A stretch of DNA of 23,278 nucleotides from a virus. The stretch spans positions 1 to 23,278 of IMG/VR virus record IMGVR_UViG_3300025687_000342. One strand, written 5' to 3'. The position numbers and the translations under genes were made by a program. This document shows, piece after piece, positions 7,352 to 23,278 of the stretch (positions within the stretch are counted from its first letter, which is position 1; each line of letters begins with the position of its first letter). The notes under the pieces were generated by a model. The model searched no databases. It was not told the DNA's origin and saw nothing but the letters and a program-made list of their open reading frames with translations.

Positions 7352-8524
7352 ATGGCATTCATAACGATCACAAAGCCAAGCGTCGGAAATCCGACCAAGC
7401 GAGATCTCGCGTCGGACATAATCGACAATCTCAACGACCTCAACTCTCGGATCGGATCGGGAGGCTCCTCGGGGATCTCGAATCCGTCCTTCGAGAACTT
7501 CACGACCAACGATCCCGACGGTTGGGACGTGACGGAGACGGGCGGGACTCAAACGATCGAGGACGACGATAACACCGAGCAAGCTCACGGCGCGGCCGCG
7601 ATCAAGTTCACCTATCCGGCGAGCGCGAGCGGAGGAGGCTACTTCGAGACCTCCGACTTCTACGAGTGCGCGGCGAATGAATACTTGAAAATAGCTTGGA
7701 AGATGCTCGGGACGTCCGCGACCGGGGCGAAGCACATCGTTCGATTTTACTGGCATAAACACGACCAGAGCGCGAGCTCTACCGCCTCAACGGATGCCTA
7801 CAGCGACACGTTCAATCCGACGGCTTGGACGCAAGGCTACACGGAGGCGCGCGTTCCGTCGGACGCAAAGTATTTCAAGATTCGGATCATCGCATCGGAT
7901 ACAAGCGCGACGCCGAGCGGCACTGGCTCAATCTCTTTCGACGACATTCGATTCGTCAAAGGCCCGTGGGAAGTATTCCGCAATTCATATGAATATCGTG
8001 GCGACGACGGCGGCCAAACGGCTAACACGTTGAAATACAAAAACGTGACGCAGCAACTCATTTGGGTTGAGGCAATCGGCGGCGGCGCGTCTAGCTCTAT
8101 AGGCGGAAATCAAGGCGGCGGCGGCGGCGGCGAATATGCGGCCGCATACTTCGCGGCGGCGGCCTCGACAAATTACGCAGTCAGTCCAGCGCCTGCGGAG
8201 CAAACAACGCTCACTGCCGGCCACAATTCGACTTTCAACTCAACAACGGTTGTAGCAAATGGCGGATCGGCTCCGGTCTCAATTAATGGTGGCGCTGGCG
8301 GAACCGGGGGAACCGGGCAGATCACCATCGACGGGCAAGATGGCGGCGACAATAGCGACGGGGCTTGGGGCGGTAGTGGCGCGCGAGGGGGCGGAGGCGG
8401 CATTGGGGGATCTGGGGCAACCGGCGAAGTTAATGGCTCCTATCCCGGCGGCGGCGGCGGCGGCGATACAAAGGACGGCGACGGCGCGCCCGGAATGGTG
8501 AAAATTTGGCACAACGATGGCTAA
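7352..8524 (+). CDS. Receptor-binding tail protein with glycine-rich tip
   Basis: 390 residues in three parts. Residues 1-40 form a short coupling segment (DLASDIIDNLNDLNSRIG). Residues 45-210 look like a carbohydrate-binding module: NPSFENFTTNDPDGW, AAIKFTYPA, SISFDDIRFV. Residues 240-390 are a glycine-rich tip with GGG runs separated by short strands, ending GAPGMVKIWHN. Such domains form polyglycine sandwiches in adhesins like T4-like gp38 and often set host range. Two runs of six GGC codons lie in the tip. The start at 7352 follows the hub stop by one base, and the end overlaps the next gene by 8 bases. Host receptor unknown. Confidence 0.75.
   Translation: MAFITITKPSVGNPTKRDLASDIIDNLNDLNSRIGSGGSSGISNPSFENFTTNDPDGWDVTETGGTQTIEDDDNTEQAHGAAAIKFTYPASASGGGYFETSDFYECAANEYLKIAWKMLGTSATGAKHIVRFYWHKHDQSASSTASTDAYSDTFNPTAWTQGYTEARVPSDAKYFKIRIIASDTSATPSGTGSISFDDIRFVKGPWEVFRNSYEYRGDDGGQTANTLKYKNVTQQLIWVEAIGGGASSSIGGNQGGGGGGEYAAAYFAAAASTNYAVSPAPAEQTTLTAGHNSTFNSTTVVANGGSAPVSINGGAGGTGGTGQITIDGQDGGDNSDGAWGGSGARGGGGGIGGSGATGEVNGSYPGGGGGGDTKDGDGAPGMVKIWHNDG
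8114..8131 (+). repeat. Run of six GGC codons
   Basis: Perfect (GGC)6 inside the glycine-rich tip, encoding six glycines. Triplet slippage here would change the length of a surface loop without breaking the frame. Confidence 0.8.
8447..8464 (+). repeat. Second run of six GGC codons
   Basis: Another perfect (GGC)6 in the same reading frame near the C-terminus of the tip protein. Confidence 0.8.
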
Positions 8525-9026
8525 AGGGATCGCCATCTCTTATCTCCTGCTCGATCCCGTGAAGGGAGGGAGGAGGTTCCGCGTCGTCGAGAAGACGACC
8601 TTCAAGGCGGACTCGTTCTTGTGCGAGATCCCGGCCGGCTTCGAGACTGACTTCGCGTCGATCCCTTCGACTCGCTTCTTTGTGATCGCGGCTCTCGCGC
8701 TTTGTTGGGCGGCCGTGATCTTCTTTGGCCCGGAGGCTGGCGAGGGCCTGGCCCTCGCGCTTGTCGTTGCCTTTGCTCTCGCCGGCCGGCTCGGGGCTTG
8801 GGGCAAGTGGGGATGGGCGGCCGTCCTTCACGACTACCTTTATTCGACGGAGAGCGACAACGCTTGCGGCGTCTCGCGCTATCTGGCCGACCGGCTCTTC
8901 TGGGTCTTCATGCGATACCGGGGGACTCCGTTGACACAAGCGGTCTTTATCTGGGGAGCCGTGAGGCTCTTCGGTTGGGCATTCTGGAAGGGCGGAAGAT
9001 TATGGAAACGACATCGAACATCTTAG
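8517..9026 (+). CDS. DUF1353-family membrane protein
   Basis: 169 residues. It carries the two DUF1353 signatures: IPAGFETDFASIP (about 38-50) and AAVLHDYLYS (about 101-110). Between them lies an insertion with two hydrophobic segments (FFVIAALALCWAAVIFF and LALALVVAFALAGRL), so the protein is membrane-embedded. DUF1353 genes are common in tailed phages near tail and lysis genes; their role is not established, though the conserved D and H-D residues suggest a metal site. The start overlaps the tip gene by 8 bases, and its end overlaps the next gene, indicating co-translation. Confidence 0.8.
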   Translation: MAKGIAISYLLLDPVKGGRRFRVVEKTTFKADSFLCEIPAGFETDFASIPSTRFFVIAALALCWAAVIFFGPEAGEGLALALVVAFALAGRLGAWGKWGWAAVLHDYLYSTESDNACGVSRYLADRLFWVFMRYRGTPLTQAVFIWGAVRLFGWAFWKGGRLWKRHRTS

Positions 9027-9415
9027 GCATCATGGACGGGATCTCCGAGCTCACGGGCGCGGGGATTCTCGTCGTCCTCATTCTGAAGCTCGTCTTCGAC
9101 TTCTTGAAGGAGCAGAAGGCGAAGAAGGTTGTCACCGATCAAACGCAGTACTTCGCGAAGACTCCGGGCTTCAACGGCGAGACGAAGAAGATCTCCGAGA
9201 ACGTCGCAGAGATCCACGATGTCCTTCTCGCGCAACCTCCACGACAGTCGGTCGTCTCGACGCTCGCGAAGGTCGACGACACTCTCCGCGATCAGGTTCA
9301 GAGGCAGAAGGAGGCCGTTCACGTCCTCGAAGAGATCCGCGACGAGCTCCGGACTCACGGCCCGAAATTAGACGACGCAAAATGCGCGGCAAAAGACGAG
9401 GTAAAAAAAAGCTAG
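9002..9415 (+). CDS. One-TM coiled-coil protein (holin- or spanin-like)
   Basis: 137 residues from ATG 9002, overlapping the DUF1353 gene. A membrane segment at about 20-36 (AGILVVLILKLVFDFL) is followed by a charged, probably coiled-coil domain (TKKISENVAEIHDVLL, VSTLAKVDDTLRDQV). One N-terminal TM plus a long charged helix fits an inner-membrane spanin subunit or a class III-type holin; no motif separates the two. The next gene encodes a lipoprotein, which is what one expects beside an inner-membrane spanin. A longer frame beginning at 8702 is a shadow of the DUF1353 gene. Confidence 0.65.
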   Translation: METTSNILGIMDGISELTGAGILVVLILKLVFDFLKEQKAKKVVTDQTQYFAKTPGFNGETKKISENVAEIHDVLLAQPPRQSVVSTLAKVDDTLRDQVQRQKEAVHVLEEIRDELRTHGPKLDDAKCAAKDEVKKS

Positions 9416-9473
9416 AGATCGAGTTATCGAAATGCGTCAAAATCCTTTTTCCTGAAGCAGAATCAACTCACCC

Positions 9474-9974
9474 ATGAAAAAGAACAAACTCCTCCCGATC
9501 TGGATCGCGCTCGCCGCGATGTTATTCACCGGATGCGCTTCGACCGGACGCCTCGACGGCGGACGCTCTTCAAACTATGGCAAGGACGCCGAGACCGGCC
9601 TCGCAAACGGAAAGAAGATGGAGGTTCTCCCGATCAATCTCCTCGGCTCCTTCTTTCGGCTGATCCCCTTCACGATGGAGAGCGGCCTTGAGTCTACGAT
9701 CGACGAGCCGGTCGTCGCGGTCGCGTCCTCCGTTGCGTCGAAGACGGCGGCCGAGAAGCTCTCGGCGAGATCCGAGCGAGATCCGGGGACCGGCCGGAAA
9801 GTTGTCGAGTATGGCGCGGCCGGGATCTCGACCGACGCTCAGAAGCTTGACGCGATCCTTCGCGAGATCGAGCGGATCAAGAACGGAATCCCCCATAAAG
9901 TCGATCGCTCCGGCGACGACTCTTCCTCCGACACGAGCGACGACGGCTCCCCCAGCGACGCTCCGAGCTCGTAA
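9474..9974 (+). CDS. Lipoprotein, possible outer-membrane lysis partner
   Basis: 166 residues with a clear lipoprotein signal: MKKNK, hydrophobic LLPIWIALAAMLF, then lipobox FTGC with Cys21. The mature part holds VVAVASSVASKTAAEKL and ends in an acidic Ser/Asp-rich tail (GDDSSSDTSDDGS). A lipoprotein implies a Gram-negative-type host envelope if sorted to the outer membrane, but this is inference. It is preceded by a 58-base gap (9416-9473) in which I see no clear promoter or ribosome site beyond weak A-rich sequence. A strong terminator follows 25 bases after the stop, closing the late operon. Confidence 0.72.
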   Translation: MKKNKLLPIWIALAAMLFTGCASTGRLDGGRSSNYGKDAETGLANGKKMEVLPINLLGSFFRLIPFTMESGLESTIDEPVVAVASSVASKTAAEKLSARSERDPGTGRKVVEYGAAGISTDAQKLDAILREIERIKNGIPHKVDRSGDDSSSDTSDDGSPSDAPSS

Positions 9975-9999
9975 CCCGCAAACCGCAACAAAGCGCGAG

Positions 10000-10033
10000 A
10001 TCCTCCGGTCGAAAGGCCGGGGGATTTTTTTTT
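10000..10033 (+). terminator. Rho-independent terminator ending the tail/lysis operon
   Basis: An 11-bp stem (ATCCTCCGGTC with GGCCGGGGGAT, two G-U pairs) with GAAA loop at 10011-10014 is followed by nine T at 10025-10033. Confidence 0.93.
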
Positions 10034-10085
10034 AATTTAGGGCTTGCGTTCTCAAGGCCTTGAGCATAAGTTCGCATCAATGAAA
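10026..10085 (+). repeat. 60-bp cassette element, copy 1
   Basis: Begins in the terminator T-tract and ends with ATGAAA of the next gene. Same as copies at 10693-10752 and 11344-11403 except one base (G at 10074, A in the others). Contains the perfect palindrome CTCAAGGCCTTGAG at 10051-10064. Confidence 0.95.
10044..10072 (+). promoter_or_regulatory. Candidate promoter with operator-like palindrome, copy 1
   Basis: TTGCGT (10044-10049), 17-base spacer, TAAGTT (10067-10072). The spacer contains the 14-bp palindrome, so a bound repressor would block polymerase. A start site 7-8 bases after the -10-like hexamer falls on the ATG at 10080, suggesting a leaderless message. Hexamers match sigma70 only partly. 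Confidence 0.5.
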
Positions 10086-10661
10086 GCGAACAACAACAAC
10101 AACGAGCAAGGAACCAAAGCAATGAAAGCAAACAACGACACGCAAACGAAAATCCTCCTCGTCGACGGCGACTGCAAGTGCGAGCTTCGCGGCGATCGCT
10201 ACGTCTTCTCAAACGACCTCGACAACAACGCACACTCGATCTCGGCCGATCCCTCGATCACGAGCGAGGAGCGACTCCTCGGACACTGGAGAGGCTTCCT
10301 CGAGGTGACTCGACGCTCTCGCCTCAACGTCGAGACGTCCAAGGCTTCCGAGATCTCGACCTGCGTCCGCAGGGCGAAGGACGAACTTAGAAAGGACGAA
10401 GACATCGACTACGTTGACAAGGAAATACAGATCTTGGCTATTGATAAAAACGGCGAGCGGATCGAGGACGCAACGACCTACTCATACGGATGCCCGACGC
10501 TGCGCGAGCTTCGCGCGCTCTTCCTCGAGTTCCCTCAAGCGATCAAGCTCCACCTCAGCGGCAAGGGGCGCGCGTTCCTCGATCGAAGCCTCCCGCTCGC
10601 CGAGCGATACGAGAACGCAGATATCGTCGACTACTGGGGGATCGACGTCTACCGTCGATAG
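10080..10661 (+). CDS. Cassette gene A, unknown protein
   Basis: 193 residues from ATG 10080; 179 from the alternative ATG 10122, which has AAGGAACCA before it. The first start is analogous to the two sister cassettes and would be leaderless; the second is the start with a ribosome site, so both may be used. The N-terminus is Asn-rich (MKANNNNNEQ, then MKANNDTQTK). The body is charged, with LDNNAHSISADPSITSEERLL, STCVRRAKDELRKDEDIDYVD and CPTLRELRALFLEFPQAI. No family, TM segment or signal peptide is recognised. The cassette is bounded by nearly identical repeats on both sides, so it could be gained or lost by recombination. Function unknown. Confidence 0.75.
   Translation: MKANNNNNEQGTKAMKANNDTQTKILLVDGDCKCELRGDRYVFSNDLDNNAHSISADPSITSEERLLGHWRGFLEVTRRSRLNVETSKASEISTCVRRAKDELRKDEDIDYVDKEIQILAIDKNGERIEDATTYSYGCPTLRELRALFLEFPQAIKLHLSGKGRAFLDRSLPLAERYENADIVDYWGIDVYRR
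10108..10116 (+). promoter_or_regulatory. AAGGAACCA start motif (ATG 10122)
   Basis: Shine-Dalgarno-type AAGGA extended to AAGGAACCA, 5 bases before ATG 10122. One of six copies of this motif before start codons in the window; it argues for an internal start in cassette gene A. Confidence 0.7.
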
Positions 10662-10669
10662 GCCGAAAA

Positions 10670-10700
10670 CGGGGAGGGAAACCTCCCCGAAATTTTTTTT
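10670..10700 (+). terminator. Terminator after cassette gene A
   Basis: GGGGAGG (10671-10677), loop GAAA, CCTCCCC (10682-10688), with an outer C-G pair at 10670/10689, then GAAA-like spacer and eight T (10693-10700). Same stem as the terminator at 11321. Confidence 0.9.
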
Positions 10701-10752
10701 AATTTAGGGCTTGCGTTCTCAAGGCCTTGAGCATAAGTTCACATCAATGAAA
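10693..10752 (+). repeat. 60-bp cassette element, copy 2
   Basis: Same element as 10026-10085 with one substitution; identity with copy 3 extends leftward through the hairpin to 10671 (82 bp). Palindrome at 10718-10731. Confidence 0.95.
10711..10739 (+). promoter_or_regulatory. Candidate promoter with palindrome, copy 2
   Basis: TTGCGT, 17-base spacer containing CTCAAGGCCTTGAG, TAAGTT; ends 7 bases before the ATG at 10747, again predicting a leaderless message. Confidence 0.5.
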
Positions 10753-11313
10753 AACACCAACGACAACAACCGGGCGGCCATCGAGGTCGCGCTCACTCCT
10801 ACCCGTAAAGCCATCAAGGCCTCGCTCAAGGACAGTTATTCCGCAGCGGTCGCTCGGATCTTCGAGAAGATCGACGAGGCCGGAGGCGATCTCAAGAAGG
10901 CCTTCCCTGTCAATACTAACGGATGGAACTACAAGCAGCAAAAAGCCGAGAAGGCCTTCGCTCGCCAGTGGGTTGAGATCACGTCCTACACCTCTCGGAT
11001 GAGCGATCCCGTTCTCTGCGAGAAGCTCCCGATCACGATCGTCGAGGCCAAGATCGAAGAGATCGCCGAGAAGGAGTCTCACGCGACGCTCGCGGCCTAC
11101 GTCTTCAAGCTCACGGCGAAGGTCGCTCAACACTTCGAGGGCGAGGAGATCGAGACCGTCACCTACTCCGGGACGCGCGATCCTTGGAACACGTCGACTC
11201 TCTCGGTCGGCTTTAAGAGCGGCGGCAAGGGCGAGCTCTCGACGAAGATGATCATCAATTGCTCGTGCCTCGGGAAGCTCTTCAATCAGTTTCCGACTCG
11301 CAAGATCTCGTAA
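10747..11313 (+). CDS. Cassette gene B, unknown protein
   Basis: 188 residues from ATG 10747. There is no Shine-Dalgarno sequence near this ATG. An Asn-rich beginning (MKNTNDNN) resembles the other cassette products. A helical segment follows (LKDSYSAAVARIFEKIDEAG), then NGWNYKQQKAEKAFARQW, EITSYTSRMSDPVLCEKLP and a C-terminal beta-rich part (LAAYVFKLTAKVAQHFEGEE, LSTKMIINCSCLGKLFNQF). No family recognised, and no signal peptide or TM segment. A TTG at 10711 extends the frame through the repeat element but is inside the likely promoter. It is bounded by terminators on both sides, so it is probably its own transcription unit. Confidence 0.78.
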   Translation: MKNTNDNNRAAIEVALTPTRKAIKASLKDSYSAAVARIFEKIDEAGGDLKKAFPVNTNGWNYKQQKAEKAFARQWVEITSYTSRMSDPVLCEKLPITIVEAKIEEIAEKESHATLAAYVFKLTAKVAQHFEGEEIETVTYSGTRDPWNTSTLSVGFKSGGKGELSTKMIINCSCLGKLFNQFPTRKIS

Positions 11314-11320
11314 CTCAACC

Positions 11321-11351
11321 GGGGGAGGGAAACCTCCCCGAAATTTTTTTT
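11321..11351 (+). terminator. Terminator after cassette gene B
   Basis: GGGGAGG (11322-11328), GAAA loop, CCTCCCC (11333-11339), short spacer GAAA and eight T (11344-11351). Copy of the hairpin at 10670. Confidence 0.9.
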
Positions 11352-11403
11352 AATTTAGGGCTTGCGTTCTCAAGGCCTTGAGCATAAGTTCACATCAATG
11401 AAA
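11344..11403 (+). repeat. 60-bp cassette element, copy 3
   Basis: Identical to copy 2 and one base different from copy 1. Palindrome at 11369-11382. Identity with copy 1 continues past the ATG (GCGAACAACA). Confidence 0.95.
11362..11390 (+). promoter_or_regulatory. Candidate promoter with palindrome, copy 3
   Basis: TTGCGT, 17-base spacer with CTCAAGGCCTTGAG, TAAGTT; ATG 11398 lies at the predicted transcription start. Confidence 0.5.
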
Positions 11404-11583
11404 GCGAACAACAGCAACTTGCTCACCTACAAAGTCACCTACATCGAAGACGGCAAGCTCGTCGAGATCCCGTGCGCAACCTACGCCGACACCGAGATGT
11501 TCAAGGATCGCGTGACGGTCTGGTCCTACCGGACTCCGCTCATCGGCGGCGCGAAGCGCTGGGAAGTCATTACGAGCCGTTAA
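11398..11583 (+). CDS. Cassette gene C, small unknown protein
   Basis: 61 residues from ATG 11398, with the Asn-rich start MKANNSN shared with gene A. The rest (LTYKVTYIEDGKLVEIPC, then DRVTVWSYRTPLIGGAKRWEVI) suggests a small beta-sheet protein. No family is recognised. Unlike A and B it is not followed by a terminator; a 23-base gap with AAGGAACCA leads to the next gene, so this promoter probably also serves the downstream operon. A longer start at TTG 11362 lies within the promoter-like element and was not used. Confidence 0.7.
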   Translation: MKANNSNLLTYKVTYIEDGKLVEIPCATYADTEMFKDRVTVWSYRTPLIGGAKRWEVITSR

Positions 11584-11592
11584 CCTCAACGC

Positions 11593-11601
11593 AAGGAACC
11601 A
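11593..11601 (+). promoter_or_regulatory. AAGGAACCA start motif (ATG 11607)
   Basis: Five bases before ATG 11607; decides that start against a longer upstream ATG at 11472 that lies in gene C. Confidence 0.75.
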
Positions 11602-11606
11602 ACGAA

Positions 11607-12416
11607 ATGAAAACGAACAAAGCAAACATCAAAGTCCCGGATCGCGAAGGAGGTGGAGGCGTGAAGATCAAGCTCTCGAAGCCTTGGCATAACGGGAGCG
11701 CGAGCCGGAACCGCTTTTGCGGCCCGGCCGCCCTCTCGGCGATCCTCGGGATCTCGTGTGAGAACGCGGCTCTCCGGATCAGGGAGAAGAGCGGGAAGCG
11801 CTCTTGCATGGGGACTTGGGCGCCGGAGCTCCGCGTCGTCCTTCGCGACTTCGGTCTCGACTTCGTCTCAGAGGAGGAGATCGGGCGAGTCATTCGGCCG
11901 ACCTTCGCTCAATGGCTCAAGGCTCGCTCTGAGGCCGATCGCTGCCGGCTCTACATGATCGCGGCCGGTCATCACTGGATCGTCGTCAAGGGCGGCTTGA
12001 TCGTTGACTCAATGCAAGGGATGACGATCGAGAGCGAGTCTCAGCACAAGCGGAAGCGCGTCGCCGAGGTCTATGAGATCCGGGACACGCGGCCGGATGT
12101 CTGGCTCCGCTGGCAGGCTCGCGTCGACAAGGAGGTCTGGCCGACCGGGAAGAGCCCGGAAGAACGCGCGGCGGCCGCTCAGGGACGTCGCAAGACGAGC
12201 GACAGGCTCCGAGCCCTCCTAAAGTCTACGGGCGCGGAGATCGAAGGCTCCGGCCGTTATTTCGAGGGATGCTTCTTGCATCTCCCTCCGAATCGCTCCT
12301 TCGACGGGGCTCACTGTCGATCGCTTTGGTCGATCGAGGAGGGGATCGAGGTTCTCGAAGAGATGGAGGAGTGTCACTGCGGCGACTGCGATCCCGAGGA
12401 GGATCTTCAGGCTTGA
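11607..12416 (+). CDS. C39-like papain-fold cysteine peptidase candidate
   Basis: 269 residues. RFCGPAALSAILGIS (Cys38) matches the cysteine-containing helix of C39-type peptidases (C-G-P-A). A His follows in AAGHHWIVVKGG (H122/H123) and an Asp in LIVDSM (D134), giving the Cys-His-Asp order of papain-fold enzymes. GTWAPELRVVLRDFGL between them is also typical of phage and bacterial C39-like proteins. The C-terminal half (140-269) has no known fold and ends with a Cys-rich acidic tail (ECHCGDCDPEEDLQA), which might bind metal. No transporter or secretion partner sits nearby, so it may act inside the cell on host or phage protein. Substrate unknown. The start is fixed by AAGGAACCA upstream. Confidence 0.6.
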   Translation: MKTNKANIKVPDREGGGGVKIKLSKPWHNGSASRNRFCGPAALSAILGISCENAALRIREKSGKRSCMGTWAPELRVVLRDFGLDFVSEEEIGRVIRPTFAQWLKARSEADRCRLYMIAAGHHWIVVKGGLIVDSMQGMTIESESQHKRKRVAEVYEIRDTRPDVWLRWQARVDKEVWPTGKSPEERAAAAQGRRKTSDRLRALLKSTGAEIEGSGRYFEGCFLHLPPNRSFDGAHCRSLWSIEEGIEVLEEMEECHCGDCDPEEDLQA

Positions 12417-12448
12417 CGGGGAAATTAAAATAATTCAAAACGCATCAA

Positions 12449-12619
12449 ATGAAATCAGCGATCCACATTCCAAACATCGAGCCGAGCCTCAAGAAGCAGT
12501 TGGAGCAATGCGCGGGAGATCGAGACCGATCCCTCGCCTCGCTCTGTCGCGCGATTCTCTCGGGATGGGCTCAGAACAACCCGGCCAATCCCCGGCCGAA
12601 GAAGAAGTCGAAGAAGTGA
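12449..12619 (+). CDS. Small ribbon-helix-helix-like DNA-binding protein
   Basis: 56 residues. A short beta-like start (SAIHIPNI) is followed by two helices, EPSLKKQLEQCAGDRDR and SLASLCRAILSGWAQ, in the arrangement of Arc/CopG-type ribbon-helix-helix repressors, with a basic tail (RPKKKSKK). It would bind DNA as a dimer and could be the regulator of the palindrome upstream of the cassette genes, but this is inferred only from neighbourhood. The ATG lies in CGCATCAAATGAAA, echoing the start context of the cassette genes, and lacks a good ribosome site. The gap before it (12417-12448) is A/T-rich. Its TGA overlaps the next gene's GTG. Confidence 0.62.
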   Translation: MKSAIHIPNIEPSLKKQLEQCAGDRDRSLASLCRAILSGWAQNNPANPRPKKKSKK

Positions 12620-12882
12620 AGACGAAGCGAATCATTTACAAGGAACCAGCATGGACAATCGATCAGATCACTCAACCTCCCCGACTCCTCGAAGCGGAAC
12701 TCCTCGGAGTGTCCGACTCCCCGACGTTCTACAAGATCCAAGTGGGCGGCCGGCTTCTTGTCGTCCACTGTTCAACGCTGTTCTGCTGGGACGCCGACGG
12801 AGATCTCTTGCGGCTCTTTGTCTTGTCCTCGGGATCGCGCTCCTCGGATCGAGATGCTATTCGGCTTCGACCGACCGCTTGA
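12616..12882 (+). CDS. Hypothetical protein, overlapped by the lysozyme gene
   Basis: 88 residues from GTG 12616, whose GTGA overlaps the stop of the RHH gene; GAAGAAG upstream could act as ribosome site. The sequence RIIYKEPAWTIDQITQPPRLL, ELLGVSDSPTFYKIQVGGRL and VVHCSTLFCWDADGDLLRLFVL looks like a real globular protein, and third positions are C/G-rich in this frame between about 12650 and 12810. The last 77 codons share DNA with the lysozyme gene in another frame. No family recognised. A longer frame to ATG 12508 overlaps the RHH gene and is not favoured. Confidence 0.6.
   Translation: MKTKRIIYKEPAWTIDQITQPPRLLEAELLGVSDSPTFYKIQVGGRLLVVHCSTLFCWDADGDLLRLFVLSSGSRSSDRDAIRLRPTA
12640..12648 (+). 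promoter_or_regulatory. AAGGAACCA start motif (ATG 12651)
   Basis: Followed by GC and ATG 12651. It lies inside the coding sequence of the 12616 gene and is the main reason to start the lysozyme-like gene at 12651. Confidence 0.72.
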
Positions 12883-13211
12883 TCGCGGCGATCCATCAAG
12901 TCGAGACCTCCGGCCGACTCGGACCGATCAAGGGAGACGGAGGTCGAGCCCTCGGTCCTCTTCAGATCCATCGAGCCTACTGGATCGACTCACGAGTCCC
13001 CGGACGCTACGAGGACGTCGCTCGTCTCGACTACGCAAAGCGAGTGTTTCTCGCCTACATGAGACGCTATTGTCCCGAGGCTCTCGCCTCCGGCGACTTC
13101 GAGACGATCGCAAGGATTCACAACGGCGGACCGCGCGGCCGCCACAAGCAAGCAACCCTCGGCTATTGGCGCGCGGTCAATCGCCACTTGCAAAGGAAAA
13201 CATCGAAATGA
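12651..13211 (+). CDS. Lysozyme-like (SLT-type) endolysin with signal segment
   Basis: 186 residues. The catalytic domain (about 75-180) has lysozyme/lytic transglycosylase signatures: Glu85 in AIHQVETSG, GPLQIHRAYW (102-111) and ARIHNGGPRG (154-163). It should cleave the glycan of peptidoglycan. Before it, RRRRSLAALCLVLGIALLGS is a basic-hydrophobic export or signal-arrest-release segment at about 48-67, implying Sec-dependent delivery. The first 47 residues are Ser/Pro/Arg-rich and overprint the 12616 gene; no ATG, GTG or TTG lies between 12651 and the membrane segment in this frame. ATGA overlap with the next gene at 13208. Confidence 0.75.
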   Translation: MDNRSDHSTSPTPRSGTPRSVRLPDVLQDPSGRPASCRPLFNAVLLGRRRRSLAALCLVLGIALLGSRCYSASTDRLIAAIHQVETSGRLGPIKGDGGRALGPLQIHRAYWIDSRVPGRYEDVARLDYAKRVFLAYMRRYCPEALASGDFETIARIHNGGPRGRHKQATLGYWRAVNRHLQRKTSK

Positions 13212-14395
13212 ATGAACACGACACAGGCGGGGCGCTCGTCCCGGTTAACCACTCCTCGGCCATCGACCGGATTCAAGATCCGATCGCGGCGGTCGAGAAA
13301 ATGGGGACTTGGTTTGCGAAGTCGGGGATGTTCGGCTGCGAAAAGCAGGAGCAAGGGCAGATTCTCGCTCTCGCGGCGATCCTCGAAAAGAAGAGCCCGA
13401 TCGAGATCGCGGACACCTATCATCTCGTCGACGGTCGGCTGACGATGAAGTCTCGCGCGCAGTTGGCGAAGTTCCGGGCGGCCGGAGGTCGCGTAAAGTG
13501 GACGACGACCGACGCGAAGGCCGCGACCGGGATCTGGAGCTTCGAGGGTAACGACATAGAGATCTCCTTCACGATGGAGGAGGCGAAGCTTGCCGGCCTG
13601 ATCCGGAAGGGCTCGGGCTGGGAGAAGACTCCGGCCGAGATGCTCCGGGCTCGATGCACGACGCGAGCGATCACGATGCTCGCCCCGGAGATCCTCTTCG
13701 GGGGATCGATCGAGGACGAGGTTGCGGCCTCGGCTCCGGTTGCTCCGGCGCCTAACCCGCTCAAGGCGGGAACTCCCCCGCTCTCCGACGAGAAGAAGGC
13801 GAAGGCCGGGAAGAACGATTCCCGATCCGAGGAGCGCGCGGCGGCTCGCGAGAACGCGGCCGAGGAGGCTCCTCGCGACGCGGCCGGGGGAACCTACACC
13901 GAGCGACTCGCCGAGGAGCAGGAGGGCGGAAGGCCGACGAAGGCCGGAAGCAACCCGGAGAACAAGGAGATCAAGGTCGACGACCTCCCGGAGCCGAAGA
14001 AGAAGCCGCGCAAGTCGCGGAAGACGGTCAAGAAGGACGCTCAGGCTCCGCAGGAGGCGTTTGAGGCGTCCGAAGGTGACAACACGGCCGAAACGGCTCC
14101 CGACGCAGGAGAGGGCAAATCTGAAGCCGAGAAGTCTCAGGAGGCGAAGGCGGCCGAGGCGATCGAGGAAGGCGTCGGCGACGAGGCTCCGGAATACGCC
14201 TCGATCTACCAGATCAAGCAGATCATGGAGATCGTCGCCGACTGCGAGGAGGACGCGATCAAGTGGCTCACGGCGAAGAAGTGGATTCCCTCTGCTGATA
14301 AGCCGACGAAGATCTCCCCGGAGAACGCGGCCCAGATCATCAAGGCTCCCGACAAGTTTCTTCGCGCGGTCGCGAAGCTGGCGGCGAAGAAGTAA
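13208..14395 (+). CDS. RecT-like single-strand annealing protein
   Basis: 395 residues. Residues 25-170 resemble RecT/Redbeta-superfamily annealing proteins: MGTWFAKSGMFG, ADTYHLVDGRLTMKSRAQLA, FRAAGGRVKW, then WEKTPAEMLRARCTTRAITML. Residues 175-325 form a long charged, Ala/Glu/Lys-rich, probably disordered linker. Residues 328-395 form a small helical C-terminal domain (SIYQIKQIMEIVADCEEDAI, KFLRAVAKLAAKK) that may contact partner proteins. It would anneal ssDNA during phage recombination and pairs with the nuclease and ssDNA-binding genes downstream. ATG 13208 overlaps the lysozyme stop. Another ATG at 13212 is in a different frame. Confidence 0.75.
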   Translation: MNEHDTGGALVPVNHSSAIDRIQDPIAAVEKMGTWFAKSGMFGCEKQEQGQILALAAILEKKSPIEIADTYHLVDGRLTMKSRAQLAKFRAAGGRVKWTTTDAKAATGIWSFEGNDIEISFTMEEAKLAGLIRKGSGWEKTPAEMLRARCTTRAITMLAPEILFGGSIEDEVAASAPVAPAPNPLKAGTPPLSDEKKAKAGKNDSRSEERAAARENAAEEAPRDAAGGTYTERLAEEQEGGRPTKAGSNPENKEIKVDDLPEPKKKPRKSRKTVKKDAQAPQEAFEASEGDNTAETAPDAGEGKSEAEKSQEAKAAEAIEEGVGDEAPEYASIYQIKQIMEIVADCEEDAIKWLTAKKWIPSADKPTKISPENAAQIIKAPDKFLRAVAKLAAKK

Positions 14396-14405
14396 ACCCC
14401 AACCC

Positions 14406-14440
14406 GGAGCGGCGTCGAGCCTCACCCTCGGCGTCGCTCC
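14406..14440 (+). other. Strong 14-bp hairpin without T-tract
   Basis: GGAGCGGCGTCGAG (14406-14419) pairs with CTCGGCGTCGCTCC (14427-14440) with two G-U pairs; loop CCTCACC. No T-run follows, so it is more likely an RNA-stabilising or processing element than a classical terminator. Confidence 0.75.
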
Positions 14441-14449
14441 CTCAACCAA

Positions 14450-14458
14450 AAGGAACCA
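14450..14458 (+). promoter_or_regulatory. AAGGAACCA start motif (ATG 14464)
   Basis: Five bases before ATG 14464, just after the hairpin at 14406-14440. Confidence 0.75.
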
Positions 14459-14463
14459 GAACC

Positions 14464-14661
14464 ATGAAGAAGAAGATCCTCCTCGCTCTGATCGCGATTG
14501 TCGCGGCCTCGGGATGCTCGTCGCCAATGACGCGCGAGAGGTGGCGGTCGATGAATGCAGACGAGCGACTCCAATCGACGCGGAGCGCGAATCAGGCGAT
14601 GAAGGACTTCGAGACGGAAATCCTCCGGGCGAAGCTCCGGAACTATCCTAGAAACCCATGA
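14464..14661 (+). CDS. Small lipoprotein
   Basis: 65 residues: MKKK, hydrophobic ILLALIAIVAA, then ASGC with Cys at about 19. The mature peptide is a short charged helix (RWRSMNADERLQSTRSANQA). Its size and lipobox fit small outer-membrane spanin-type lipoproteins, but it sits in the recombination operon rather than beside the other lysis candidates, so an envelope-surface role such as exclusion is as likely. The stop overlaps the next start (ATGA at 14658). Confidence 0.72.
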   Translation: MKKKILLALIAIVAASGCSSPMTRERWRSMNADERLQSTRSANQAMKDFETEILRAKLRNYPRNP

Positions 14662-15728
14662 ACACAGAGAAGAAGATCCGGCCCTCGTCGCTCCCCGCGA
14701 TGGCCGAGTGTCCGCAATTCGAGGGAGACGGAAAAGAGAGCGATCACGCGGCCGAGGGAACTCGGCGACACTCGCTCCTCGCAGCCTTCAACACGACCGG
14801 CAAATTCGAGAACGAGGACGGATCGCCGATCAACCTCACCGAAGAGTCGCAGGAGGCGGTCAAGTGGGCTTCGGAATACATCGACAATCACAAAGTCGGC
14901 GACGGCGTCTTCGAGAAGAAGATCGCGATCGCGCTCAACGTCGAAGGCCAGACCGTGACGATCGAGGGGACTCCTGATTGTCGCGACGGCCTCGACAACG
15001 GTCCCCGGAACCTGTTTGACTTGAAGTGGCGATTCGGGAACTACCGCCCTCAGTTGGCGGCCTACGCTCTCGGGATCATGCAAGACGCCTTCACCGAGAA
15101 GATCAAGGTTCACATCCTCTTCGGCTACGACAAGAAGCCGCAGACTTTCACGCTCACCGAGGACGAGGCCGAGGCCGAGATCGTCGACATCGTCGGCCGA
15201 GTGATCCGGGAGGAGCCGGCCAATCCTTGCGAGTATTGCGGTTGGTGCGGGAAGGCCGCTTCTTGCCCGGCTCTCGCCGAGCGCGTCGAGGCCGTTAGAT
15301 CCGGCCGGGACGATTGGGGACTCGACAGCTATCACGCGAGCGAGATCGAGAGCCCGGTCGAGATGGCGAAGGCTCTGGATCTCGCGCGAGCCCTCAAGAA
15401 GTGGTGCGAAGCGATCGAGTATCACGCCAAGCAGATGCTCCTCAAGAAGGGCTCCCTTCCGGGCTTCAAGCTTTCGACGCGAGCCGGGAAGAAGCGGATC
15501 ACCGACCTCGCCCAAGCGGTCGTCTTGTCCGGGCTCGATCCGGACGAATTCATCAAGGTCTGTTCGGTCGCCTTCGGGGACTTGAAGGCTCTTCATCAAG
15601 CAACCTTCGGCGAGGATTACACCTCGAAGGCGGCGGCCGATCGAGATCTCCTCAAGAAGCTTGAGCCCGTGATCGAGACTGGCTCCGAGATTCACATGAT
15701 CTTGAAGGACCGGCCGCAAAAGAAGTAG
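14658..15728 (+). CDS. DUF2800 / Cas4-like PD-(D/E)XK nuclease
   Basis: 356 residues. The order of motifs matches DUF2800: PSSLPAMAECPQFEG with Cys18, HAAEGTRRHSLL (H38), IEGTPDCRD (D107), LFDLKWRFGN (D121-x-K123), then PQLAAYALG (Q132, Y136). A Cys cluster at 191, 194, 197 and 203 (CEYCGWCGKAASC), with Cys18, would hold an iron-sulfur cluster as in Cas4/AddB. It probably degrades DNA ends to feed the annealing protein encoded two genes upstream. A C-terminal helical region (DLAQAVVLSGLDPDEFI) is typical of the phage members. ATG 14658 overlaps the lipoprotein stop. Confidence 0.85.
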   Translation: MNTEKKIRPSSLPAMAECPQFEGDGKESDHAAEGTRRHSLLAAFNTTGKFENEDGSPINLTEESQEAVKWASEYIDNHKVGDGVFEKKIAIALNVEGQTVTIEGTPDCRDGLDNGPRNLFDLKWRFGNYRPQLAAYALGIMQDAFTEKIKVHILFGYDKKPQTFTLTEDEAEAEIVDIVGRVIREEPANPCEYCGWCGKAASCPALAERVEAVRSGRDDWGLDSYHASEIESPVEMAKALDLARALKKWCEAIEYHAKQMLLKKGSLPGFKLSTRAGKKRITDLAQAVVLSGLDPDEFIKVCSVAFGDLKALHQATFGEDYTSKAAADRDLLKKLEPVIETGSEIHMILKDRPQKK

Positions 15729-18064: not shown

Positions 18065-18073
18065 AAGGAACCA
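18065..18073 (+). promoter_or_regulatory. AAGGAACCA start motif (ATG 18076)
   Basis: Followed by GC and ATG 18076; only 5 bases after the helicase stop. Confidence 0.78.
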
Positions 18074-18075
18074 GC

Positions 18076-18270
18076 ATGGACAACACAGTGACAGACCTTG
18101 AAGTCGCAAAGACGATGCTGATCTTCGGAAGCGGCTTCTCAAAGGCTCTCGCGACGGCCTACATGGTCGCCGACTCGGAGAACTCAAAGAAGATCCGCGA
18201 GACTTGGCCGGAGCTCTGGAAGGTGTTTCGCGAGCGCGCCGAATGGCAGAAGGAATGGAGGCAATTGTGA
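18076..18270 (+). CDS. Small hypothetical protein
   Basis: 64 residues, preceded by a textbook copy of the window's start motif. Helical, with EVAKTMLIFGSGFSKALATA then aromatic and charged RETWPELWKVFRERAEWQKE. No family recognised. It ends at a TGA overlapping the GTG of the next gene. Confidence 0.7.
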   Translation: MDNTVTDLEVAKTMLIFGSGFSKALATAYMVADSENSKKIRETWPELWKVFRERAEWQKEWRQL

Positions 18271-22747: not shown

Positions 22748-23173
22748 ATGAGCGACAGAGATCACACGGTTGAGGATACGCTTCTCGCATCCGAGGACTT
22801 TGACTACGACAAGATCGACGGGATTCCCTCTCTCATGGAGGGCTTGCCCTCAACGGTTGAGTTCCAGATGGCAGGAGTCGCGCTTCACGACATTCTCGAA
22901 TGGGCTCTTCGGTCAAGCGGGGGGCGGGGGGCGGTCGAGTGGGTACCGCTCAAGATTCAAGCGGCAATATGGGTTGTCTGTCCTTCCCTCTTCGGAGGAT
23001 GCACACAATCGGAGCTCGCCGAGAGGTTGGGATTCACGAGACAAGCATTCTCGCGACACATCCGATCGTTCAGGGATGAATTCAAGTTTCGGAATCACCT
23101 CATGCGATCGGACGAGACGAGGGAGAACAACGCGGCGGCGGCGAGGCGACAGCACGAGGGGAGGGTGGCATGA
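22748..23173 (+). CDS. HTH protein, possible terminase small subunit or regulator
   Basis: 141 residues from ATG 22748, chosen because GGGGAGGAGAT lies just upstream (an alternative GTG start at 22721 lacks this). A helix-turn-helix lies at about 90-120: GGCTQSELAERLGFTRQAFSRHIRSF. The N-terminus is acidic (EDTLLASEDFDYDKID) and the C-terminus is Ala/Arg-rich. Small terminase subunits with HTHs are commonly encoded at the start of the packaging module, and the next gene runs off the window, so this role is plausible but unproven. A transcription regulator is the alternative. Confidence 0.62.
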   Translation: MSDRDHTVEDTLLASEDFDYDKIDGIPSLMEGLPSTVEFQMAGVALHDILEWALRSSGGRGAVEWVPLKIQAAIWVVCPSLFGGCTQSELAERLGFTRQAFSRHIRSFRDEFKFRNHLMRSDETRENNAAAARRQHEGRVA

Positions 23174-23278
23174 TGAGGTGGTCAATTCTGACCAATCGAC
23201 AGTCAGTGTCTCATATGTGGACACAGTGTCTAGTTCGAAGGCTACCACAGCGAAAGGCGTCGGCAGGTTACGCGCGGG
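23170..23278 (+). other. Start of the next gene or an intergenic control region, unresolved
   Basis: Two frames stay open to the window end: ATG 23170 (ATGA overlap, giving MMRWSILTNRQSV) and GTG 23178 (giving VVNSDQSTVSVSYVDTVS). Neither is clearly coding. Inverted repeats GGTCA-ATTC-TGACC and GTGTC-N9-GACAC lie within it. If coding, the gene is probably a packaging gene; if not, a regulatory or cos-type site is possible. Confidence 0.3.

Follow-up and report, generated by a model that had tools for sequence, protein, structure and literature searches.

A Repeated Element at the Starts of Three Small Genes

What lies between the small genes near the middle of this viral DNA? In the window—the whole stretch of 23,278 nucleotides that we analyzed—a 60-bp element, read directly from the sequence, occurs three times (10026–10085, 10693–10752, and 11344–11403), each time ending inside the start of a different gene. 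The features of the locus and of the genes just behind it are as follows:

9997–10034, plus strand: terminator 1, hairpin GATCCTCCGGTCGAAAGGCCGGGGGATT and T-tract, behind an upstream lipoprotein-like gene; 14 pairs, −23.4 kcal/mol
10026–10085, plus strand: element copy 1, 60 bp, with T-tract, AATTTA, TTGCGT (10044), TAAGTT (10067–10072), and ATG (10080)
10051–10064: palindrome in copy 1, between TTGCGT and TAAGTT
10080–10661, plus strand: gene 1, 193 aa, no relatives found
10670–10700, plus strand: terminator 2, CGGGGAGGGAAACCTCCCCG and T-tract
10671–10752, plus strand: 82-bp repeat, copy 2, comprising hairpin, promoter-like part, and ATG; palindrome at 10718–10731
10747–11313, plus strand: gene 2, 188 aa, phrog_4687 family
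11322–11352, plus strand: terminator 3, GGGGAGGGAAACCTCCCC and T-tract
11322–11403, plus strand: 82-bp repeat, copy 3; palindrome at 11369–11382
11398–11583, plus strand: gene 3, 61 aa, no relatives found
11607–12416, plus strand: gene 4, 269 aa, Shine-Dalgarno-led
12449–12619, plus strand: probable ribbon-helix-helix protein (Arc/FitA-like), downstream of copy 3

The three 60-bp copies differ at a single position (G at 10074, A in the other two), lie 667 and 651 bp apart, and reach six bases into their genes (ATGAAA), the start codons being at 10080, 10747, and 11398. Copies 2 and 3 share still more, as 10671–10752 and 11322–11403 are identical over 82 bp, hairpin included. The 60-bp positions, the single substitution, the spacings, and the 82-bp identity agree with a preliminary description of the locus. 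Copies 1 and 3 are 97% alike across 75 bp; because this similarity runs into the first codons, the gene starts have a common Asn/Lys-rich beginning. There are no repeated 24-mers in the window outside these cassettes, so the repeats are not a product of chance. The order of parts is the same in every copy: a G+C-rich hairpin, a T-tract, AATTTAGGGC, TTGCGTT, the palindrome CTCAAGGCCTTGAG, CA, TAAGTT, seven bases, and ATG. The palindrome is a perfect one of 14 bp and occurs free of mismatches only at the three copies.

The hairpin before copy 1 (GAGATCCTCCGGTCGAAAGGCCGGGGGAT, −23.4 kcal/mol) differs from that of copies 2 and 3. Of the terminator-like sites within 8000–15000, the three upstream hairpins rank with the best; the hairpin-3 stretch folds no better than its own shuffles (z = −0.6). 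We found no terminator behind gene 3 and none between genes 3 and 4. Transcription from copy 3 thus probably covers an operon beginning at 11398, with gene 3 its probable first gene; gene 4 and the ribbon-helix-helix gene (12449) are probably transcribed from this copy as well. Gene 4 belongs to phrog_3754, with relatives in Brevundimonas, Roseobacter, and Erythrobacter phages, and its ORF carries CGPAAL...GHHWIVV...DS, by eye resembling papain/C39-like cysteine peptidases.

A Second Contig and a Fourth Copy

A second IMG/VR contig, IMGVR_UViG_3300007960_000066 (37,590 bp), comes from the same virus: it matches 19,000 bp of the window at 99.99% and has the same three copies and the same gene order. 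Its base 1 corresponds to window position 23278; this common end point may reflect either the physical end of the genome or assembly data common to both contigs. Its portal, terminase, major head, and tape measure genes are of families other than T4-type.

A fourth, diverged copy of the element, TTGAATGCTCAAGGCCTTGGCTTTAAATT, lies in the contig's other 14.3 kb, between head genes. Compared with copies 1–3, it differs at 8 of 29 positions, none of them in TTG, CTCAAGGCCTTG (the core of the palindrome), TAA, or TT—a pattern noticed post hoc. No G+C-rich terminator stands in front of it, and only three of the four copies are fused to one. Behind it is a further ORF:

L010 8311–8577, minus strand: ORF of 89 aa behind the fourth copy, no family match

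The first codons of this ORF resemble those of gene 1, where a second in-frame ATG stands about 42 nt downstream behind a Shine-Dalgarno-like AAGGAA; this ORF, too, has a further in-frame ATG that is preceded by a Shine-Dalgarno-like sequence. Next comes a small ORF that carries a zinc-ribbon-like CPHC motif. L064 is a relative at some distance (38% in the major head protein, 33% in the protease); there the protease gene follows the preceding gene immediately and no cassette intervenes, as expected for an inserted unit.

Could the repeated blocks have come from misassembly? Repeats may be collapsed or multiplied in short-read metagenomes, but distinct genes lie between the copies, the fourth copy is diverged, and the second contig has the same arrangement, even though it may derive from related data. 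We therefore regard an artifact as very improbable.

In IMG/VR, scans with exact and with relaxed patterns recovered the element from this virus alone. Its sole near relative is again this virus and carries an identical set of three genes, so cassette turnover is unseen in its lineage; a varying number or order of cassettes was seen in no relative. A scan of bacterial genomes for the host, using gene 2 and the terminase, found nothing.

A Putative Operator-Bearing Promoter

What might the element do? Its TTG-N20-TAAnTT layout is promoter-like, with a 17-bp spacer between the hexamers, the palindrome inside that spacer, and, in copies 1–3, 7 nt between the −10 box and ATG. In the two pieces of the 37.6-kb contig, scanned on both strands, the pattern occurs four times, always at the element and 7–8 nt before an ATG. 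The match of copies 1–3 to the sigma-70 consensus is poor (TTGCGT/TAAGTT, 6/12), and a promoter scan listed no promoter at these copies. The promoter assignment thus rests on architecture, repetition, and conservation.

From these features, we infer that the phage has in this element a promoter of its own, present in several copies, bearing an operator, and joined to the terminator that closes the gene before it; accessory genes would thereby be insulated and separately started. We put the probability of this reading at about 0.72. The cassettes are best read as co-regulated promoter–terminator modules, PeSL- or moron-like (see below), that carry accessory genes. Their anatomy fits the separate terminator–promoter–gene units that had been proposed at the outset, and the diverged fourth promoter copy elsewhere in the genome adds to it.

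Under this promoter reading, TTG-N20-TAAnTT would be the binding site of RNA polymerase, with an A/T-rich stretch immediately upstream, and a regulator of host or phage origin would bind CTCAAGGCCTTGAG in the spacer, switching all copies together. Copies 1 and 2 would each drive one gene up to its terminator, and copy 3 an operon. The ribbon-helix-helix protein at 12449 (phrog_3431, E = 0.001; PF22513, E = 0.002, below Pfam's curated cutoff) is perhaps that regulator, and a natural candidate for autoregulation. At the contig end, a 141-aa protein (22748–23173) with a weak winged-helix match (MarR/Crp-like) is a candidate for a second regulator or for the small terminase.

Transcription would begin at or next to the ATG. 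A start is expected some 7–8 bases past the −10 hexamer, which here is the A of ATG, so a leaderless or nearly leaderless mRNA is predicted. A Shine-Dalgarno motif is missing from about half of this phage's genes, and its absence at the element is therefore no proof of a leaderless start. Two other genes are preceded by copies of one translation start module, AAGGAACCAGCATGGACAA (12640–12660 and 18065–18085), so the phage also reuses ribosome-binding starts.

The palindrome or the hairpin might instead act in RNA, as an attenuator or translational operator, or a small RNA might be encoded here. A hairpin with a T-tract before each copy is compatible with such a role, but the palindrome sits between promoter-like boxes directly before ATG, the positions conserved in the fourth copy suit DNA binding, and an Rfam search matched no RNA family. 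A post-transcriptional element is accordingly improbable.

Gene 2 Is Shared Between Otherwise Unrelated Phages

Are the genes behind the element related to anything known? They had initially been thought to match no family. That held for genes 1 and 3, for which searches found no relatives (the structure prediction for gene 1, made without relatives, has a pLDDT of 39 and is unusable), but not for gene 2, which matches the phrog_4687 profile over its full length (E = 1.4e-14, profile positions 9–183 of 184). No PADLOC model was matched; as these models cover defense proteins, the outcome speaks neither for nor against the anti-host or anti-defense role suggested in the preliminary description.

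The nearest copies of gene 2, in L011/L012, are 91% identical in DNA to window positions 10745–11328. The shared stretch runs from 2 nt before ATG into the downstream terminator hairpin, of which the stem is retained and the loop changed; the T-tract and the promoter are gone. Gene 2 is the only protein common to this phage and the L011/L012 phage (ORFs of at least 60 aa, as called), the further similarity being 154 bp at 73% in ORF 12651–13211. The two versions of the gene differ by a dN of 0.06 and a dS of 0.24, values in keeping with purifying selection acting on the protein. L056 and L059 form a second unrelated pair and likewise share a member of the family, over 514 bp at 93%, from 11 nt before ATG (the ribosome-binding site) into a terminator hairpin whose stem is altered on both strands; no other protein or long DNA stretch is common to the loci compared. 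In both exchange pairs, then, the shared unit is the ORF plus its downstream hairpin, with the element or promoter excluded.

Phages thus appear to trade gene 2 as a single plug-in unit, and judging from the sequence comparisons, the portable unit is best read as gene 2 with its terminator. Because the promoter would end at ATG and the gene ends in a hairpin, ORF and hairpin could be exchanged without harm to the neighbors. Homologous recombination between identical flanking copies could also delete or duplicate a gene. Of the gain, loss, and swapping of genes suggested in the preliminary description, the part concerning the gene-2 cargo is borne out—it occurs alone in an unrelated phage, with a second pair in the same family—and only that part; strict swapping by recombination at the element itself is possible.

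Might the element be chiefly a homology site for gene insertion and loss, its promoter role being secondary? A unit of hairpin, promoter, and gene 2 could have entered one ancestral hairpin-promoter by a single crossover, and the exact 82-bp copies that flank gene 2 are what one crossover would leave. That gene 2 alone is common to an unrelated phage also speaks for this idea. Against it, the relative's gene 2 lacks the element and the DNA preceding it is not repeated in its contig, the promoter lies outside the shared unit in both exchange pairs, and no variant without gene 2 was seen. We consider a site of this kind possible but rather unlikely.

Repeated Start-Region DNA Across the phrog_4687 Family

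Does the association between gene 2 and repeated DNA extend beyond this virus? The phrog_4687 family is uncharacterized and widespread; an alignment-based scan gave 41 family loci, and 18 of 20 aligned members match the phrog_4687 profile. At 12 of 23 family loci from diverse phages, the gene start carries repeated DNA (24–150 bp); among the other intergenic starts, 13 of 179 do (Fisher P = 4.9e-7; the window phage is excluded, and the ORF caller used for the control is crude). A G+C-rich hairpin follows the family gene in 11 of 27 cases, against 2.2 expected.

At eight loci (L026, L031, L032, L036, L043, L047, L052, and L053), the repeats look like the phage's own promoter and start region, and they differ in sequence from the element described here. 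Two of these, L032 and L047, have a terminator-like hairpin directly before one repeat copy. In the unrelated phage L036, a repeated near-consensus promoter precedes the gene-2 homolog (TTGACA-17-TATAGT-TAGGGTC-ATG) with the same 7-nt gap; the layout in L043 is similar but weaker. Repeats near some other gene-2 homologs were rejected as promoters: those of L029 are tRNA genes, that of L054 is a repeated hairpin, those of L027 and L050 are ribosome-binding-site stretches, that of L056 is mainly a start-region stretch, and that of L059 belongs to repeat-rich DNA. Since some repeats are not promoters, the statistic of 12/23 describes repeated start-region DNA, which need not always be a promoter. 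The L029 homolog is surrounded by tRNA-like repeats, which form a cluster in this phage contig (1534–5309).

Repeated promoters are common in phages. The copies might then have arisen by plain duplication of a promoter with no role in gene exchange, the sharing of gene 2 being ordinary phage mosaicism, and several gene-2 homologs do stand elsewhere behind ordinary repeated promoters with ribosome-binding sites. Yet in two independent pairs, the borders of the exchanged stretch fall at the start region and at the hairpin, and repeated start DNA is about seven times commoner in the family than at other intergenic starts. A promoter that was simply duplicated thus strikes us as a doubtful account of the whole. 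We tentatively suggest, with well under even confidence, that the family is transmitted among unrelated phages as single genes, each no more than an ORF and its terminator hairpin, which habitually land directly behind a repeated promoter or start region of the recipient, such repeats serving as standing docking sites.

For the gene-2 protein, the structure model is confident (pLDDT 93), with long helices and a C-terminal curved sheet, and Foldseek returned no match at E < 0.001. The best VIA match, a cystatin-like designed binder (Z = 5.8 over 64 residues, rmsd 3.2), reflects a common arrangement only, with 5 of 994 chains reaching a Z of at least 5. There were no credible sequence relatives in the PDB; weak Pfam matches to Robl_LC7 and MCR_alpha are not credible either, and a plasmid search gave only two partial Aeromonas matches.

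Small phage genes are gained and lost fast, but what is exchanged can seldom be seen as a unit; in the two pairs of unrelated phages compared here, members of one gene family are shared, with borders that lie at the start region and at the terminator hairpin. Were this arrangement general, it would explain how genes of unknown function are added without harm to phage operons, and it would offer a way to find such genes—by looking behind repeated phage promoters. It also singles out phrog_4687 for study.

Relation to Known Phage Systems

Morons are extra genes that lie between phage genes as separate transcription units with a promoter and a terminator, usually with individual promoters. This anatomy fits cassettes 1 and 2, where the promoter is predicted, and the fourth copy lies between head genes; insertion between phage genes is seen for the fourth copy only, against the distant L064. 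Here, in contrast, one predicted promoter is common to all, presumably under one regulator. Accessory loci with their own promoters have also been described (PMC7067206).

The closest known kind appears to be the promoter-early stem-loop (PeSL) cassettes of T4-type phages, and the element appears to be a variant of that kind, going by the account of PeSLs in two later sources. PeSLs are held there to mediate gene shuffling (PMC4503421, PMC3950731). As in the PeSLs so described, a terminator hairpin is fused to a repeated promoter—here, promoter-like boxes in three copies—between small accessory genes. Measured against that account, our phage differs in being non-T4, so that the T4-type background is lacking; in having only three copies plus one, nearly identical; in its palindrome within the promoter spacer, a predicted promoter that ends at ATG, and another promoter sequence; and in an exchanged unit that consists of ORF and hairpin without the promoter.

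In the haloarchaeal virus HGTV-1, TATA and inverted-repeat motifs precede many ORFs, and its authors compared them to PeSLs (PMC3950731). The combination of a promoter-like box and an inverted repeat before ORFs recurs here, but the promoter there is archaeal, and the likeness drawn here is one of layout. The SAS/ESAS repeats of Cluster K mycobacteriophages are likewise tied to start codons, those of nonstructural genes, about half with inverted repeats just upstream; the ESAS has 17-bp imperfect arms with a spacer, beside a 13-bp GGGATAGGAGCCC repeat (PMC3203893). Our element instead has a continuous 14-bp palindrome between promoter-like boxes, together with a terminator, and the 13-bp start-associated repeat, on direct reading, is not present at the three copies. 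Cluster O mycobacteriophages have predicted leaderless promoters that start at the first base of the start codon (PMC4351075). Those are single promoters rather than repeated cassettes, and the palindrome of Cluster O, a 17-bp repeat, is separate from them; the predicted start point at the start codon is the feature that they share with the element.
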